NCBI GenBank assembly: GCA_016235665.1
Contig: JACRJI010000001.1
Span: 62,001 to 126,000, forward strand
DNA length: 64,000 nt
Source: a candidate division TA06 bacterium
Lineage (GTDB): Bacteria > Edwardsbacteria > AC1 > EtOH8
Reading direction: 5' to 3'
Shown here: positions 3,351 to 11,531 of the stretch, in pieces
Position numbering within the stretch: position 1 is the stretch's first letter
How the letters are laid out: each line of letters starts with the position of its first letter
Made by a program: the position numbers and the translations under genes
The notes under the pieces: model-generated
What the model saw: only the letters and a program-made list of their open reading frames with translations
Database searches by the model: none
Told to the model about the DNA's origin: nothing

Positions 3351-4007
3351 TTAGATATTTTTGGGTTTTATTTTCTTTCCGTTGCTCTTGCTCTTGGGCT
3401 TGGCCTTGACCGTATCCGTAACCGTGGTGTCCGCTTTTATCGCCGCAGCCAGGCTTTCGGGCCTGGTCTTGCCCAGTAATAGATTGAGCTTGGCCTCCAA
3501 TTCCTTCTCGTAACCTGCTTGAAAGCCCACATGGTATTCGGCGATGTTGCCGGCCTTGTCAATCACCACCAGGGTCGGCAGGCTGTTGGCCTTGTATTTC
3601 TGGGAGGTAACCGAAAATTCGTCATGCAGAATGGGAAGCGAGATCACCCGCTGGAAGATGTAAGCCTCCACCGTGTCCCGGGCTTCACCCACGTTCACCA
3701 GGTAAAAACGGACGCTGTCCCCGGCAAAGCGCGAGGCCATCTCCTGCAGGCAGGGGATCTCCTTTTTGCAGTTCTCGCACCAGGTGGTGAAGAAGCTTAA
3801 GACCACCACGTCCCGCTGCTGTCGGGTGCGGGGGGTTCTGGGCTGGCCGCAGTAATCGCGGAGATAAAAAGTGGATCCTCCGTCCAGGTTCTTCAGCACT
3901 ATGGGAGGAGCCGGGTCGCCCACCTTCAGTCCGGGCTTGTCCCCGGCAGCTAAGGCCGAGATTGACAATAACAGTAGCGTAAGACAGAATGACAGGATAT
4001 TTTTCAT
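3351..4007 (-). CDS. Exported TlpA/ResA-like thioredoxin-fold protein
   Basis: The 218-residue product starts with a signal peptide (MKNILSFCLTLLLLSISALA, cleavage after about residue 21). It then has a TlpA/ResA/AhpC-TSA fold with the redox motif WCENCKKE (C77, C80), a cis-Pro region SLPTLVVIDKAG and GFQAGYEKEL near the end. Such proteins reduce disulfides outside the cytoplasm, for example in cytochrome c maturation. The last 25 residues are Lys/Ser-rich with repeated KPKS-type motifs, unusual for the family. An extra stretch around residues 52-66 (rich in Thr, Arg and Gln) lies between strand and active site. No cytochrome genes are nearby, so the substrate is unknown. Confidence 0.85.
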   Translation of the reverse strand: MKNILSFCLTLLLLSISALAAGDKPGLKVGDPAPPIVLKNLDGGSTFYLRDYCGQPRTPRTRQQRDVVVLSFFTTWCENCKKEIPCLQEMASRFAGDSVRFYLVNVGEARDTVEAYIFQRVISLPILHDEFSVTSQKYKANSLPTLVVIDKAGNIAEYHVGFQAGYEKELEAKLNLLLGKTRPESLAAAIKADTTVTDTVKAKPKSKSNGKKIKPKNI

Positions 4008-4888: not shown

Positions 4889-5794
4889 TTATTTTGCCAT
4901 CAGCGCCGAAAGCACTATGGACATGAACTTGGTCTCGTCGGAATCTGTGCGCGAGGTCAGCACCACCGGGGCGCTGGTGCCTATGACCATGGCCGCCAGC
5001 TCCGCCTTGGCCAGCTGGGCCAGCGTCTTGTAAATGAAGTTGGCCCCGTGGATGTCCGGGCAGACCAGGATGTCGGCGTAGCCGGCCACCGGCGATTTGA
5101 GGCCCTTGCCGGCCGCGCATTCCGGGGAGACCGCGGCGTCCATGGACAGCGGCCCGTCCACTATGCAGCCCTTGATCTGCCCCCGGTCGGCCATCTTGGC
5201 CAGCTGGGCCGCTTCCAGGCTGCAGGGCCATTTGGGATTGACCTTTTCGGTGGCGGTCAGCACCGCCACCTTGGGGGTTTCAATTCCCAGTTTGTGGGCC
5301 ACCGCCACGGCATGGTTGATCATGTCCACCTTCTGCCCGAAGTCCGGGTAGGGGATCTGGGCGGCGTCGGTGAGTATCAGCAGCCGGGGATAGTTGGGAA
5401 CTTCGAACACCGCCACGTGGGAGACGGTGGCCCCGGTGGTCAGACCGTTCTCCTTGTTCAGATAGGCCCGGGCGTAGACCGCGGTGTCTATCAGGCCCTT
5501 CATCAGCACGTCGGCTTCGCCTTTTTTGACCATCTCCACCGCCCTGGCGGCCGCTTTCTTATAGTCGGTCTCGTCGATCAGGGTGAATATCTTGGGATCG
5601 ATATTATTTTCCTTGGCCAGAGCCTCGGTCTTTTTCTGATCGCCGATCAGGATGGCCTTGGCCGATTTTTCGTTGACCGCCCGGGCCAAAGCGCCCAGGA
5701 TGTCCGGATCCTGGCCGCAGGCCACGGCCACTCTCTTTAACGGTCCGCCCTTGACCAGTTCCGCCATTTGTTTCAGTGAGGTAACTTGTGCCAC
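4889..5794 (-). CDS. ptb: Phosphate butyryltransferase, copy 1
   Basis: Ptb converts butyryl-CoA (or branched-chain acyl-CoA) and phosphate to acyl-phosphate and CoA; with butyrate kinase this yields ATP. The 301-residue product belongs to the PTA/PTB family: ADVLMKGLIDTA, TGATVSHVAVFEVPNYPRL, TDAAQIPYPDFGQKVDMINHAV, GQIKGCIVDGPLSMDAAVS and ADILVCPDIHGANFIYK are typical. It starts with GTG at 5794, preceded by TAGGAG at good spacing. It is the last of the duplicated ptb/buk genes in transcription order and follows a diguanylate cyclase gene. Whether it prefers butyryl-, isobutyryl- or another acyl-CoA cannot be told from the sequence. Confidence 0.9.
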   Translation of the reverse strand: MAQVTSLKQMAELVKGGPLKRVAVACGQDPDILGALARAVNEKSAKAILIGDQKKTEALAKENNIDPKIFTLIDETDYKKAAARAVEMVKKGEADVLMKGLIDTAVYARAYLNKENGLTTGATVSHVAVFEVPNYPRLLILTDAAQIPYPDFGQKVDMINHAVAVAHKLGIETPKVAVLTATEKVNPKWPCSLEAAQLAKMADRGQIKGCIVDGPLSMDAAVSPECAAGKGLKSPVAGYADILVCPDIHGANFIYKTLAQLAKAELAAMVIGTSAPVVLTSRTDSDETKFMSIVLSALMAK

Positions 5795-5887: not shown

Positions 5888-6826
5888 TCAGCTGACGTAC
5901 ACCGCGTTCCTTCCTCCCTGCTTGGCCCGGTACAGGGCCTTGTCCGCCCGGTCTATCAGTGAATCCAAGGATTCCTTCGGGTTAAGCTCGGCCACCCCCA
6001 TGCTGATGGTGATATTGAAGGGCCACAGTTTTTCCTGGTGGATCAGCCTCCATCTTTCCACCGACAGCCTCAGCCGTTCGGCGATCTCGGCCGCGATCTC
6101 GGCCTTAGTCTGGGGCAGCATGATCAGGAATTCCTCGCCCCCGTAGCGGGCCACCCGGTCGTATTCCCGGATCCCGGCCTGGAGCTGCCGGGAGACGCCC
6201 TTCAGCACTTCGTCACCGATCTGGTGGCCGTACTGGTCATTGACGTGCTTGAAATAATCCAGATCGCAGAAGATCAGGGACAGCGGCAATCCCAGGCGCT
6301 TTGATTTCTTCAGTTCCAGGTCCAGCTCCATCTCAATCTTGCGCCGGTTCAGCAGTTCGGTCAGGGGATCGATGGCCGCCAGTCTGGACAACAGCTCCGA
6401 GGCCTTGGCCTCCTCCTCGTAGATGCTGGCGTCCCGGAAGATCTGGACCGCCCCCAGCCGCTCCCCCGCGGGACCGCTGATCGGCGAGGAGACCACATCC
6501 ACCGGCACCCGGCGCCCGTCCTTGTGTTTCAGGTAGACCCTGGTCTGGCCGGTGGGCTGTCCGCCGTTGACCGCCCGGCTTAAGGGGCAGAGCGGTCCGC
6601 ACATGCTCCGGCCCTCGGTATCGATGTGGCACAGCAGGTCGTCGGAACAACGGAAAGTGATCACTTCCTCCGGCCGGTAACCGGAAATGCTTTCTGCCCC
6701 TTTGTTCCAGTAGGTGATCCGCTTCTCGTTGTCCACAAAATACACGCCGTCATAGGTCTGGTCCAGGATGGCCTTGTAAATGTCGCAGGGCAGGCCGCTG
6801 GCATTGTCCTCCGCCTGTTTGGTCAT
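5888..6826 (-). CDS. PAS-GGDEF diguanylate cyclase
   Basis: The 312-residue product makes c-di-GMP from two GTP. Residues about 15-130 form a PAS domain (TYDGVYFVDNEKRITYWN) with a four-Cys pattern (CSDDLLCH then CGPLCPL) that recurs in PAS-GGDEF proteins and may bind metal or sense redox state. Residues about 145-312 form the GGDEF domain with DPLTELLNRR, DLDYFKHVND and the active-site RYGGEEF. The product-inhibition site RxxD is present (REYD, five residues before GGEEF). No membrane segment is seen, so it is probably cytoplasmic. Its ATG overlaps the stop of the upstream ptb by one base (TGATG), suggesting the signal protein is coupled to the acyl-phosphate genes. Confidence 0.9.
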   Translation of the reverse strand: MTKQAEDNASGLPCDIYKAILDQTYDGVYFVDNEKRITYWNKGAESISGYRPEEVITFRCSDDLLCHIDTEGRSMCGPLCPLSRAVNGGQPTGQTRVYLKHKDGRRVPVDVVSSPISGPAGERLGAVQIFRDASIYEEEAKASELLSRLAAIDPLTELLNRRKIEMELDLELKKSKRLGLPLSLIFCDLDYFKHVNDQYGHQIGDEVLKGVSRQLQAGIREYDRVARYGGEEFLIMLPQTKAEIAAEIAERLRLSVERWRLIHQEKLWPFNITISMGVAELNPKESLDSLIDRADKALYRAKQGGRNAVYVS

Positions 6827-7722
6827 CAGCAGCTGACCACACCCAGGGCGATGGAATTGATCTTCTGTTGCTTGGAATCGGCCCGGGAAAGCATCACCAC
6901 CGGCTTGGCCGCCCCGGCGATGATCCCGGCGGCCTGGGCCCCGCCCAGGTAGATCAGACCCTTGACCAGCATGTTGCCCGAGGCGATGTCGGGGGTCAAA
7001 AAGATGTCGGCCTCCCCGGCCACCTGGCTCTTGATCTTTTTATGGGCGGCGGCCTCGGCCGAGACCGCCAGGTCCAGGGCCAGCGGGCCGTCTATGATGC
7101 AGCCCTTGATCTGTCCCCGGTCGTTCATCTTGGAAAGGTGGGTGGCGTCTATGGTTTCCTGCATCTCCGGGTTGAGCACTTCTATGGCGGCCAGCACGGC
7201 CACCTTGGGCTTTTCCACCCCCAGCTTTTGCGATATCTCCACCGCGTTGTTGATGATGTCCACCTTGGCCATCAGGTCGGGCTTGACGTTCATCCCGCCG
7301 TCCGAGACCAGTATCAGCTTGGGGTAGGACGACGATTCCATCACCGCCACATGGGACAGCAGGCGCCCGGTGCGCAGGCCCACTTCCTTGTCCAGCACGG
7401 CTTTTAGGAAGGTGGAGGTGGCCACCAGCCCCTTCATCAAGAAATCGGCCCGACCCGAGGAGACCGCGGACACCGCGGCCTTTGAGGCCTCGGCCATGTC
7501 CTTGATGTCTTGCAGTTCCCAGCCCTTGATGTCCACCTTGGCCTTGACGGCGGCATCTTCTATCGCCTTTTTGTCGCCGAATAAAATTGGAGTGGCGATC
7601 TTCTCTTTGGCCGCGTCGCTTAAAGCCTCAAGGACCACTTCGTCCTGGGCCACCGCCACCGCCACTTTTTTGGGCCCTTTGGCCTTGGCCTCTTTCATCA
7701 GATCGGAAAATGATTTGATCAT
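6826..7722 (-). CDS. ptb: Phosphate butyryltransferase, copy 2
   Basis: A second PTA/PTB-family acyltransferase, 298 residues, clearly homologous to the copy at 4889-5794 but diverged, so the duplication is old. Landmarks are ADFLMKGLVATSTFL, SHVAVMESSSYPKL, VSDGGMNVKPDLMAKVDIINNAV, GQIKGCIIDGPLALDLAVS and ADIFLTPDIASGNMLVKGL. The start is set at 7722 because AAGAGGAG lies six bases upstream; an in-frame ATG at 7740 falls inside a palindromic repeat and is rejected. It is followed with a one-base overlap by the PAS-GGDEF gene. A repeat-bounded GIY-YIG module separates it from butyrate kinase 1. Confidence 0.9.
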   Translation of the reverse strand: MIKSFSDLMKEAKAKGPKKVAVAVAQDEVVLEALSDAAKEKIATPILFGDKKAIEDAAVKAKVDIKGWELQDIKDMAEASKAAVSAVSSGRADFLMKGLVATSTFLKAVLDKEVGLRTGRLLSHVAVMESSSYPKLILVSDGGMNVKPDLMAKVDIINNAVEISQKLGVEKPKVAVLAAIEVLNPEMQETIDATHLSKMNDRGQIKGCIIDGPLALDLAVSAEAAAHKKIKSQVAGEADIFLTPDIASGNMLVKGLIYLGGAQAAGIIAGAAKPVVMLSRADSKQQKINSIALGVVSC

Positions 7723-7735
7723 GTATGCTCCTCTT

Positions 7736-7805
7736 GTCATTCCTGCGAAAGCAGGAATCCAGTTATTATTGTCTGATAGTCATTCCTGCGAAGGCAGGAA
7801 TCCAG
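7736..7805. repeat. Two direct copies of a 27-bp palindromic REP-like repeat
   Basis: Copies at 7736-7762 and 7779-7805 both run GTC, then ATTCCTGCGAAAGCAGGAAT (second copy with G for one A), then CCAG. Each is an almost perfect hairpin. Read in one frame they encode the VIPAKAGIQ peptide often seen in misannotated genes. They lie between the ribosome site of ptb copy 2 and the 3' end of the GIY-YIG gene. Confidence 0.85.
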
Positions 7806-7808
7806 AGT

Positions 7809-8096
7809 TTAGCTCAATTCGTTATACAGTTCTTTCCATTCTGGATTTCGTTCTTCAATCAGCCTTATCTTCCATTCACGTTTCCAGGCTTTCAATCTTT
7901 TTTCACGAATAATCGCCAGACGTATATCATCAAATATTTCGTAATAAACCAAAACATTCACGTTGTATCTTTCAGTAAAACCTTCGACTGTTTTTTGCTT
8001 ATGCTCGTTAACCCTGCGAACAAGGTTATTGGTCACGCCTATATACAAAGTACCGTTACGTTTGCTGGCCAGGATATAGACATAGTACTGTTTCAT
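7809..8096 (-). CDS. Single-domain GIY-YIG nuclease (UPF0213/URI-type)
   Basis: The 95-residue product is a free-standing GIY-YIG domain: YYVYILASK, TLYIGVTNNLVRRVNEHK with the catalytic Arg, then EGFTERYNVNVLVYYE and IREKRLKAWKREWKIRLIE. The first motif reads YVY and YIG at the usual spacing. Such proteins cut DNA one strand at a time; the roles of the stand-alone bacterial forms are mostly unknown. It is flanked by palindromic repeats on both sides, a frequent setting for this subfamily. No ribosome site is obvious before the ATG, and the coding DNA is more AT-rich than its neighbours, consistent with transfer. Confidence 0.85.
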   Translation of the reverse strand: MKQYYVYILASKRNGTLYIGVTNNLVRRVNEHKQKTVEGFTERYNVNVLVYYEIFDDIRLAIIREKRLKAWKREWKIRLIEERNPEWKELYNELS

Positions 8097-8241: not shown

Positions 8242-9312
8242 TCAAGCATACTCCCTGGCCTGCTCCTCGCCTTTCAATATCCGCATTCCGGCCTCGGCCA
8301 GGGCCGTCATCTCGTCCTCGCCGGGGTAGACTTTTACCGGGGCGATCCAGGAGACCCGTTCCTTGATCCACTCCACGAATTCCGGGAAGTAGGCGAAGGA
8401 GCCCGTCAGCACTATGGCGTCCACCTTGCCGTTGACCACCGTGGCCATCTCGCCGATGGTCTTGGCGTTCTGGTAGGCCATGGCCTGGATGATCAAAATT
8501 GTCTTGGCGTCCCCGGCCTTGACCTTGTCCTCCATCTCCCGACCGTCGTTGGTGCCCAGGTGCGAGACGCAGCCGCCCTTGCCGGCCAGCTTCTTGTTCA
8601 TCTCGTCGATGGTGTACTTGCCGGAGAAGCACATCTTGACTAGGTCGCCGGTGGGCAGGCTGCCGGCCCGCTCCGGGGCGAACGGCCCGTCGCCGTTGAG
8701 CGCATTGTTGACGTCCACCACCTTGCCCTTTTCGTGGATGCCGACCGAGATCCCTCCGCCCAGGTGCACCACGATCAGGTTCAGCTCCTCGTATTTTTTG
8801 CCGAGATCCTTGGCCGCCCGGCGGGCCACCGCCTTCTGGTTGAGGGCGTGGAAGATGCTGACCCGGGGAAGCTCCGGCAGTCCTGAATAACGGGCCAAAG
8901 GATTCAGTTCGTCCACCACCACCGGATCCACGATGTAGGACTTGACCCCGGCGTCGCGGGCCAGGTCGTCGGCTATCAGGCAGCCGAGGTTGGAGGCGTG
9001 GTCCCCGCCGGTGCCGGCCTTGATATAATCCAGCATGGCCTGGTTGACCGCGTAGGTGCCCGAGGGGATCGGCTTGAACAAGCCTCCCCGCCCGATGATA
9101 GCGCTGAGGTCCTTGATGTTGATCCCGCCCTTGGCCAGGGCGTCCTCGATCACCTGCTTGCGGAAGTCGAACTGGTCGGTGATCCGCTTGAAGGGGGCCA
9201 GCTCCTCGGCGGAGTGGCGCAGGGTGTCTTTGAATATGGCTTTGCCGTCCTCGTACACCGCTATTTTGGTGGAGGTGGAGCCGGGGTTGATGGCCAGGAC
9301 TTTGAAGGGCAC
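8242..9312 (-). CDS. buk: Butyrate kinase, copy 1
   Basis: Butyrate kinase converts butyryl-phosphate and ADP to butyrate and ATP. The 356-residue product is a standard-length acetokinase-family (ASKHA fold) protein: phosphate-1 loop AINPGSTSTKIAV near the start, GRGGLFKPIPSGTYAVN, VVHLGGGISVGIHEKGKVVD, PFAPERAGSLPTGDLVKMCF, IVLTGSFAYFPEF and YPGEDEMTALAEAG near the C-terminus. Start is GTG at 9312 with GGAGG eight bases before it. Ptb copy 2 would follow in the transcript but for the inserted GIY-YIG cassette. A role with branched-chain acyl phosphates is possible. Confidence 0.92.
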   Translation of the reverse strand: MPFKVLAINPGSTSTKIAVYEDGKAIFKDTLRHSAEELAPFKRITDQFDFRKQVIEDALAKGGINIKDLSAIIGRGGLFKPIPSGTYAVNQAMLDYIKAGTGGDHASNLGCLIADDLARDAGVKSYIVDPVVVDELNPLARYSGLPELPRVSIFHALNQKAVARRAAKDLGKKYEELNLIVVHLGGGISVGIHEKGKVVDVNNALNGDGPFAPERAGSLPTGDLVKMCFSGKYTIDEMNKKLAGKGGCVSHLGTNDGREMEDKVKAGDAKTILIIQAMAYQNAKTIGEMATVVNGKVDAIVLTGSFAYFPEFVEWIKERVSWIAPVKVYPGEDEMTALAEAGMRILKGEEQAREYA

Positions 9313-9414: not shown

Positions 9415-9786
9415 TCACTCCGTCAGCCAGCCTTCCGCCGCATATTCGCTGCTAAACACCTTTATGCTGACCCCGCCCCGGCTGAACAACTTTGCAAAGA
9501 ACGCAAACTCCGTTTTGTGGGGGTCGTCCTCCCCTATCAGAAGCGCGATCCTGGCCCCGGCCATGAATACTCCCTGGTGGGCCATGGCAAATTCCTGTTT
9601 CTCCCAATCATCGATCTTTAAGACCGCTCCCCGCAGGTCGGCCAGTATCCTGGGCGGTCTCCCTCCCTCCAGTTTTCCCAATAAGGCGTGGCTGGTTCCC
9701 CACATTTCGTGGTTAAGCACTATGTCCTTGTGGACGATCCTGATTATCCCCTTTTCCTGGTCAATGACAATCTCGTGGGCCATCAT
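9415..9786 (-). CDS. STAS/SpoIIAA-like small protein
   Basis: The 123-residue product has alternating strands and helices of the STAS/SpoIIAA-like kind: an N-terminal strand pair (IVIDQEKGIIRIVHKDIV), then PPRILADLRGAVLKIDDWEK, where a DLRG loop sits at the place of the anti-sigma-antagonist loop, then ARIALLIGED and a C-terminal strand IKVFSSEYAAEGWL. The SpoIIAA-like family (PF11964) is the best guess. No signal peptide or catalytic motif is seen. It lies between the two butyrate kinase genes with the DUF4180 gene, so it may sense or regulate this module. The function is unknown. The start could also be the second ATG three bases on. Confidence 0.5.
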   Translation of the reverse strand: MMAHEIVIDQEKGIIRIVHKDIVLNHEMWGTSHALLGKLEGGRPPRILADLRGAVLKIDDWEKQEFAMAHQGVFMAGARIALLIGEDDPHKTEFAFFAKLFSRGGVSIKVFSSEYAAEGWLTE

Positions 9787-9863: not shown

Positions 9864-10193
9864 CTATGAAGCTGCAAATACTATACGGCCGTTCTTGTTG
9901 CTCTCGCGGATGAAATCAATGAGGGTATCTCCCGGGTACTTGGAAAAATCCCCGATCACCGCCAGGCTGACCCCGTAATTCATGAATTTCTGCAGCAGCT
10001 CTCCTGCAAAGCCTGTCCTTAAACGGAAGAAATCCGGATTGATCTGATGGTCCCGCAGAATTATTTTGCCGATGTCTGCATTGGCCATCAGGTCCAGACC
10101 ATCCTGCACCTTGTCGATGACCATTCCATCCGACTCTATCAGGGCATATTCCATTCCCCGCACGGTGCACTTTTTAAAATTGAAGGTGCTCAA
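9864..10193 (-). CDS. DUF4180-family protein
   Basis: The 109-residue product matches the DUF4180 pattern: DGMVIDKVQDGLDLMANA, ILRDHQINPDFFRLRTGFAG, LLQKFMNYGVSLAVIGDFS and FIRESNKNGRIVF. The family is small, cytoplasmic, of unknown function, and often found beside regulators. Its ATG overlaps the stop codon of butyrate kinase 2 (ATGA, 10190-10193), so it is translationally coupled to that gene. The coupling suggests a role in the acyl-phosphate module, but no biochemical role is known to me. Confidence 0.75.
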   Translation of the reverse strand: MSTFNFKKCTVRGMEYALIESDGMVIDKVQDGLDLMANADIGKIILRDHQINPDFFRLRTGFAGELLQKFMNYGVSLAVIGDFSKYPGDTLIDFIRESNKNGRIVFAAS

Positions 10194-11473
10194 TATTCCC
10201 TGGCTTTCTCCTCGCCCTTAAGCACCCTCAGCGCTCCGGCTGCCAATGCCGGCATCTCGTCCTCGCCGGGATAAACGAAATACTTGGGCGTGATGAAGGC
10301 CGTCCGCTCTTTTATCCAGTCGGTGAAGATCTGGTTGTGGGCCACGCCCCCGGTGACCACTATGGCGTCCACTTTGCCCTTAAGCACCGTGGCGCAGGCC
10401 CCGATCTCCTTGGCTATCTGGTAGGCCATGGCCCGGAATATCTCCTCGGCCTGCTTGTCGCCTTTCAGCACCCGGTCCTTGACCTCGTTGGCCCGGTTGG
10501 TGTCGGTGTAGGCCGACAGCCCGCCGCTGCGGGTCAGCTTTTTCTTGATCTCGTCGGCGGTGTATTTGCCGGAGAAGCACATCTTGACCAGGGCCCCGGT
10601 GGGCACGCCCCCGGCCCGCTCCGGAGAGAAAGGCCCGCCCTCGTTGGCATTGTTGACATCCACGAATTTGCCGTGGTCCACCGGCGAGATGGAGATGCCG
10701 CCGCCCAGGTGGGCCACGATCAGGTTGACCTGTTCCAGCTTTTTGTTCAGTTCCTGGCAGGCCTGCAGGGCGGCCATCCTCATGTTAAGGGCGTGCAGCA
10801 GGGACTTGCGCTCGATCTCGGCCAGCCCCGAGATCCGGGCCAGCGGAGAAAATTCGTCCACCGAGACCGCGTCCACGATGAAGGCCTGGGCGCCTGACTG
10901 ATCGGCGATCTCCTTGGCGATGAAGGCCCCCACGTTGGAGATGTGCTCGCCGCGCTTGGCTTCGCGCAGGTCGCTGAGCATGGCGTCATTGATGACGTAA
11001 GTGCCGGAGGAAATGGGCTTAAGCAGCCCGCCCCGGTCCACCACCGCCGCCAGGGATTTTGGGTCAATCTTGTTCCTTGACAAAAAGTCAAGCACCACCT
11101 GCTTGCGCATGGGATACTGGTCCACTATCCTGGCGTATCTTTCGATCTCGGCCTTGTTGTGGTCTATGGACTCGGAGACCAGAGGTTTCGCCCCTTTATA
11201 GACCGCCACCTTGGTGGAGGTGGAGCCGGGATTGAGCACCAGGATCAGCAGGTCCTTGGGAATTCTCACTTTCCCTGCCGCAACCTTTTTACCCCGTACC
11301 CCTTTTAATATCTTTATCCTTTTAGACGCCTCCCTGCCCTTCTTTCCCGCAGCAGTTCTCTTGACCACTTTCGTCTTTTTCACCTTGTTGACCTTTTTGG
11401 GGGCTGCAGACTTTTTCTGCTTCACAGCCTCCTTGCCCGTTTTTTTCTTGGCCGGTTTCTTAATTATAGACAT
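10190..11473 (-). CDS. buk: Butyrate kinase, copy 2, with a histone-H1-like basic N-terminal tail
   Basis: Residues about 74-427 form a complete butyrate kinase: LVLNPGSTSTKVAVYKG, DRGGLLKPISSGTYVIN, IVAHLGGGISISPVDHGKFVD, PFSPERAGGVPTGALVKMC, IVVTGGVAHNQIF and YPGEDEMPALAAGAL. In front is a tail of about 70 residues with 24 Lys and 5 Arg but only 2 acidic residues, rich in Ala and Val, resembling H1/Hc1-type DNA-binding tails. Family members are about 355 residues, so the tail is an addition. GGGAG lies eight bases before the ATG at 11473. An internal GTG at 11269 (residue 69) with AGGG just before it could give a tail-less form. The next gene overlaps by 4 bp. Confidence 0.9.
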   Translation of the reverse strand: MSIIKKPAKKKTGKEAVKQKKSAAPKKVNKVKKTKVVKRTAAGKKGREASKRIKILKGVRGKKVAAGKVRIPKDLLILVLNPGSTSTKVAVYKGAKPLVSESIDHNKAEIERYARIVDQYPMRKQVVLDFLSRNKIDPKSLAAVVDRGGLLKPISSGTYVINDAMLSDLREAKRGEHISNVGAFIAKEIADQSGAQAFIVDAVSVDEFSPLARISGLAEIERKSLLHALNMRMAALQACQELNKKLEQVNLIVAHLGGGISISPVDHGKFVDVNNANEGGPFSPERAGGVPTGALVKMCFSGKYTADEIKKKLTRSGGLSAYTDTNRANEVKDRVLKGDKQAEEIFRAMAYQIAKEIGACATVLKGKVDAIVVTGGVAHNQIFTDWIKERTAFITPKYFVYPGEDEMPALAAGALRVLKGEEKAREY

Positions 11474-11531
11474 CTTATAACTCCCAGTTAAACCTTAAGA
11501 AAATATTGATGATAGTTAATGCCTGCAATGT

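Follow-up and report, generated by a model that had tools for sequence, protein, structure and literature searches.

The 64,000-nucleotide stretch of DNA analysed here (the window), from a genome of Candidatus Edwardsbacteria, a little-known phylum of bacteria, encodes a real and lineage-specific variant of a known enzyme that has apparently not been described before: a butyrate kinase (Buk) that carries a lysine-rich tail at its N-terminus. The tail has the features of a disordered segment constrained in composition, in that its sequence drifts while its charge is maintained; the constraint is only loose. We propose, with moderate confidence, that this disordered polycation acts through non-specific electrostatic contacts, most probably holding the kinase on nucleic acid.

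The kinase domain, its tail and its translation start

The gene for this tailed butyrate-kinase family protein (bukT, 10190..11473; all features described here lie on the minus strand) begins with ATG and encodes 427 residues. The TIGR02707 profile matches residues 77–425 (E 5.5e-143) with a score of 476 bits, above the curated cut-off of 289, and residues 76–427 span TIGR02707 and NF002834, in agreement with the earlier note on this DNA, which had described a whole kinase following the tail. The nearest solved structures are those of Thermotoga maritima Buk2 (PDB 1saz and 1x9j; E about 1e-101, residues 77–427). In an alignment with 15 rows that includes both tailed and untailed Buks, positions N81, S84, S86, R147, H177, D201, H227, H255, R286 and E404/E406 are invariant, and we take these, by analogy with acetate kinase, to be the ASKHA active-site positions. 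This invariance leads us to expect that BukT is an acyl kinase of the butyrate-kinase family with its catalytic apparatus intact, an activity predicted from sequence. Enzymes of this family interconvert acyl phosphate plus ADP and acid plus ATP. Since related acyl kinases associated with VOR, IOR or HPP use branched-chain or aryl acids as substrates and not butyrate alone (PMC13285125), ‘butyrate’ in the naming of BukT is better read as ‘acyl’.

The tail proper (residues 1–73, 11255..11473) contains 25 Lys, 5 Arg and 2 Glu and is devoid of aromatic residues; the earlier counts of Arg and acidic residues were confirmed, whereas that of Lys (24) was one too low. At an assumed background of 7% Lys, the chance of finding at least 25 Lys in 73 residues is about 1e-11. 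Among 634 ORFs of at least 90 residues, drawn from about 754 kb (a 28% sample of the 2.7 Mb, 16-contig genome), the tail is the sole segment that has at least 15 Lys together with more than +13 net charge per 60 residues, and a genome-wide bias towards Lys as its source was ruled out for the 28% sampled. A value of +27 is reached by one Arg-only frame that lacks Lys and appears to be GC-rich DNA read out of frame. No homologue of the tail was found elsewhere in the genome, low-complexity sequence of this kind being hard to search. Two thioredoxin-like proteins recognized by eye, one in the window (3351–4007) and one at another locus (L124:15469–16026), have short Lys-rich C-termini (e.g. KAKPKSKSNGKKIKPKNI).

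In an AF2 model of BukT, residues 1–70 have pLDDT values below 50 and are all coil, with no secondary structure; AF2 also gave low confidence for parts of the kinase domain, as expected from an alignment of only 15 sequences. The disordered, Lys/Ala/Pro-rich make-up without aromatics is that of histone H1-like nucleoproteins. Against curated H1-like families, the best Pfam match of the tail was HC2, at 11.8 bits versus a cut-off of 40, which is not significant (E 0.26).

Translation of the tail is indicated by its start site. A Shine-Dalgarno-like GGGAG (11481..11485) lies 7 nt 5′ of the ATG at 11473, and in all ten Edwardsbacteria genomes compared an ATG with a comparable purine-rich motif is found 68–119 codons 5′ of the NPGSTSTK motif, with the frame open between them. 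An internal GTG (Val69, 11267..11269) had been proposed in the earlier note as a second start. The codon and its upstream AGGG are indeed present, but they are separated by only 3 nt (AGGG-AAA-GTG), a poor spacing, and the GTG shows no conservation among relatives; we thus rejected a short form initiated there, the more so as the upstream ATG, its motif and the open tail frame occur in ten of ten genomes. That only a short form is made is unlikely because the GTG is not conserved. For the tail to be untranslated, with translation truly beginning near residue 69 and the frame before it open by chance, this GTG would be available, but the frame that it would leave unread is rich in Lys and Arg in every genome and has pN/pS values mostly of 0.40–0.65, and we consider this reading extremely improbable.

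Conservation and distribution of the tail

The tailed kinase was found in all ten Candidatus Edwardsbacteria genomes examined, which represent four genera; searches at the level of family, order and phylum returned this identical set of ten. The earlier note had held that absence of the tail from close relatives would tell against it, an objection that its presence in ten of ten removes. The ten tails range from 61 to 112 residues and from +26 to +37 in net charge, with 17–33 Lys, 1–11 Arg, 0–4 acidic residues and at most one aromatic residue (none in nine), and all are classed as disordered by the Uversky criterion. Mean pairwise identity among the ten proteins falls from 80% in the body to 32% in the tail. 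Values of pN/pS for the tail lie at 0.40–0.65 in all but one of ten pairs, the exception being 0.97, compared with 0.08–0.35 for the body, and within a genus the Lys/Arg positions of the tail are kept at up to 34 of 34.

Other Buks appear to lack such a segment. It is absent from the untailed paralogue of 356 residues encoded in tandem with bukT (8242..9312; 53% identity with the body of the tailed kinase) and from the untailed copies recovered from sister genomes. Among 117 Buk-like frames at 78 loci of named genomes, only two stand out, both from Edwardsbacteria, at +22 and +18 per 40 residues; the others do not exceed +7, and no Lys-rich tail was seen on the Buks of the 76 named loci from outside the phylum. 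In a sample of 386 genomes from across Bacteria, most Buk matches from beyond the phylum start at query residue 62–77, and no Lys-rich tail occurs among the N-termini read, a subset comprising the matches that start earlier (query residue 33–58) and other cases with long open frames. Several long open frames 5′ of Buks in other phyla (e.g. L145, L156, L159, L167 and L170) were rejected, either as Arg-rich out-of-frame readings of high-GC DNA, in several of which the start codon lies near the domain, or as fusions of the Ptb-Buk type. The earlier statement that such a tail is not known from any butyrate kinase therefore stands for the sets searched (76 loci and the 386-genome sample), which are part of the public data, and the one paper that a full-text search showed to mention both butyrate kinase and the word lysine-rich has an unrelated title.

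Possible roles of the tail

Given its occurrence in all ten genomes and on no other Buk examined, the tail is probably a tether to DNA, RNA or another anionic partner; binding to DNA, RNA or membrane, or localisation of the enzyme, as the earlier note suggested, is plausible from the sequence. We envisage that an acyl kinase of the Edwardsbacteria lineage gained an intrinsically disordered, polycationic N-terminal tail, which would bind non-specifically and electrostatically, with nucleic acid (DNA of the nucleoid, or RNA) as its most probable partner, and would thereby give this isoform a particular location, the untailed tandem paralogue remaining soluble. Nucleic acid is the most abundant polyanion, although any polyanion would do as a partner, which counts against nucleic acid specifically. 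The H1-like Lys/Ala/Pro tails of AlgP and PhaF bind DNA (PMC9239181), and the BukT tether may be analogous to these tails, which are thought to join granules to the chromosome. Both HU proteins of this genome are without a tail. If the proposal is correct, a histone-like disordered tail, conserved throughout a candidate phylum, would hold a central enzyme of energy metabolism in place within the cell, and the untailed tandem paralogue would serve as a natural control for its effect; BukT and a deletion of its tail would make the attachment of bacterial metabolic enzymes to the nucleoid (or to polyphosphate) directly testable.

Among other anionic partners, inorganic polyphosphate deserves attention, as binding to it or to its granules would put an ATP-forming kinase at the store. 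The genome encodes PPK2 (E 1.7e-75), which keeps this alternative alive although PPK1 was not found in a genome search; we know of no link between Buk and polyphosphate, and on balance this reading seems unlikely. A precedent is AlgP, which has an H1-like tail and localises to polyphosphate granules (PMC9239181). A tether to PHA granules is disfavoured by the lack of a match to the N-terminal domain of PHA synthase (PhaC_N), a search that covers synthases with this domain. Association of the tail with the inner face of an anionic membrane would accord with the short amphipathic stretches seen in some tails (muH up to 0.68, in genome G009), and polybasic segments can bind anionic lipid. Nine of the ten tails have no aromatic residues, however, mean hydrophobicity is negative even in the most amphipathic stretches, and the alignment contains no conserved amphipathic or lipid-modification motif, so that a membrane location strikes us as improbable. 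Equally improbable, in our judgement, is a translated tail with no specific role, a nearly neutral and tolerated basic extension inherited from the ancestor of the phylum: rapid drift, variable length (61–112 residues) and the single pair with pN/pS near 1 are what such an extension would show, but charge and composition are held in every genome, with 0–4 acidic residues per tail, and the sampled 28% of the genome contains no comparable Lys-rich segment elsewhere.

The tail could also respond to the chemistry of the enzyme that bears it. BukT presumably handles acyl phosphate beside about 25 lysines, and acylation of these by acyl phosphate that the active site makes or uses could neutralise their charge and release the enzyme from its anionic partner, so that its location would report the acyl-phosphate level. 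What makes such a self-acylation switch appealing is the case of the nucleoid protein HupS, which is acetylated in vitro by acetyl phosphate and whose affinity for DNA is affected by acetylation (PMC11229371). A sirtuin (SIR2) that could reverse the modification was not found in a search confined to that deacylase class, and we regard the switch as rather unlikely. The compound idea, in which an H1-like tail anchors a fermentation kinase to the nucleoid and can itself be acylated on its lysines by the acyl phosphate that this kinase makes or uses, is a long shot; were it true, energy metabolism would be coupled directly to a chromosome-bound enzyme, and possibly to the acylation of nearby DNA-bound proteins, throughout the phylum.

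Origin and comparison with known systems

In a tree of 163 rows, built with a short search and read without regard to the long branch of one mis-extracted row (bukE_G006), the ten tailed proteins form one group with support of 100 inside the clade of one of two clostridial Buk paralogues, and the untailed Edwardsbacteria copies group with the other. The simplest reading of these sequences is that the Buk duplication is older than the tail, which would have been added in the Edwardsbacteria lineage; the grouping of BukT with the first Buk of the clostridial cluster makes the tail appear to be an addition, specific to this lineage, to an enzyme that is itself old.

At the bukT locus, the usual pairing of butyrate kinase with phosphate butyryltransferase is found in the form of Ptb1 (6826..7740; NF004472, E 6.8e-120, above cut-off; PF01515) and a second Ptb-like protein of 301 residues (4889..5794); in sister genomes, the likely orthologues of this second protein share about 49% identity with Ptb1. 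The order shared among Edwardsbacteria is HEAT-like protein, guaA, TPR protein, bukT, small genes, buk, ptb1, PAS-GGDEF and usually ptb2. The small genes of the window encode a DUF4180 protein (9864..10193; PF13788, E 2.3e-29), which overlaps the 3′ end of bukT by four bases, and a 123-residue protein with no family assigned (9415..9786), with proteins about 29–35% identical to it following bukT in several sister genomes. A 95-residue protein that appears by eye to be GIY-YIG-like (7809–8096) is encoded between the untailed buk and ptb1, with short flanking repeats giving translations of the VIPAKAGIQ/CEGRNP type. The PAS-GGDEF diguanylate cyclase (5888..6826) has a start that overlaps the Ptb1 stop, and its position between ptb1 and the second Ptb-like gene is retained in several sister genomes; this placement suggests that c-di-GMP signalling is tied to the fermentation genes. 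Five POR-type oxidoreductase gamma domains encoded elsewhere in the genome are compatible with 2-oxo-acid fermentation.

Ten clostridial loci (L036–L066, e.g. L038) have ptb between two Buk paralogues, followed by genes for a P-loop protein and for proteins like 2-oxoacid:ferredoxin oxidoreductase, the identity of the P-loop protein and oxidoreductase subunits being judged by eye from gene starts. BukT belongs to the same clade as the first Buk of this cluster, and a Buk pair with Ptb is common to both arrangements; the clostridial first Buks are without a tail in every case, however, and the Edwardsbacteria window has no adjacent oxidoreductase genes. The kinase domain aligns throughout with T. 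maritima Buk2 (PDB 1saz, 1x9j; TIGR02707), but there the match begins at chain residue 4, leaving no room for an N-terminal tail. Acyl kinases associated with VOR, IOR or HPP, such as HpdK, are of the same enzyme family and have no described tail (PMC13285125). A Lys-rich tail is shared with HupS/HupB, HU proteins for which DNA binding and acylation sensitivity are characteristic (PMC11229371), although their core is a DNA-binding protein and that of BukT is a kinase. AlgP and PhaF of Pseudomonas are likewise folded bacterial proteins apart from a long, disordered tail rich in Lys, Ala and Pro (PMC9239181), but their tails are C-terminal KPAA repeats appended to helical or phasin domains, whereas that of BukT is N-terminal and borne by a metabolic kinase.
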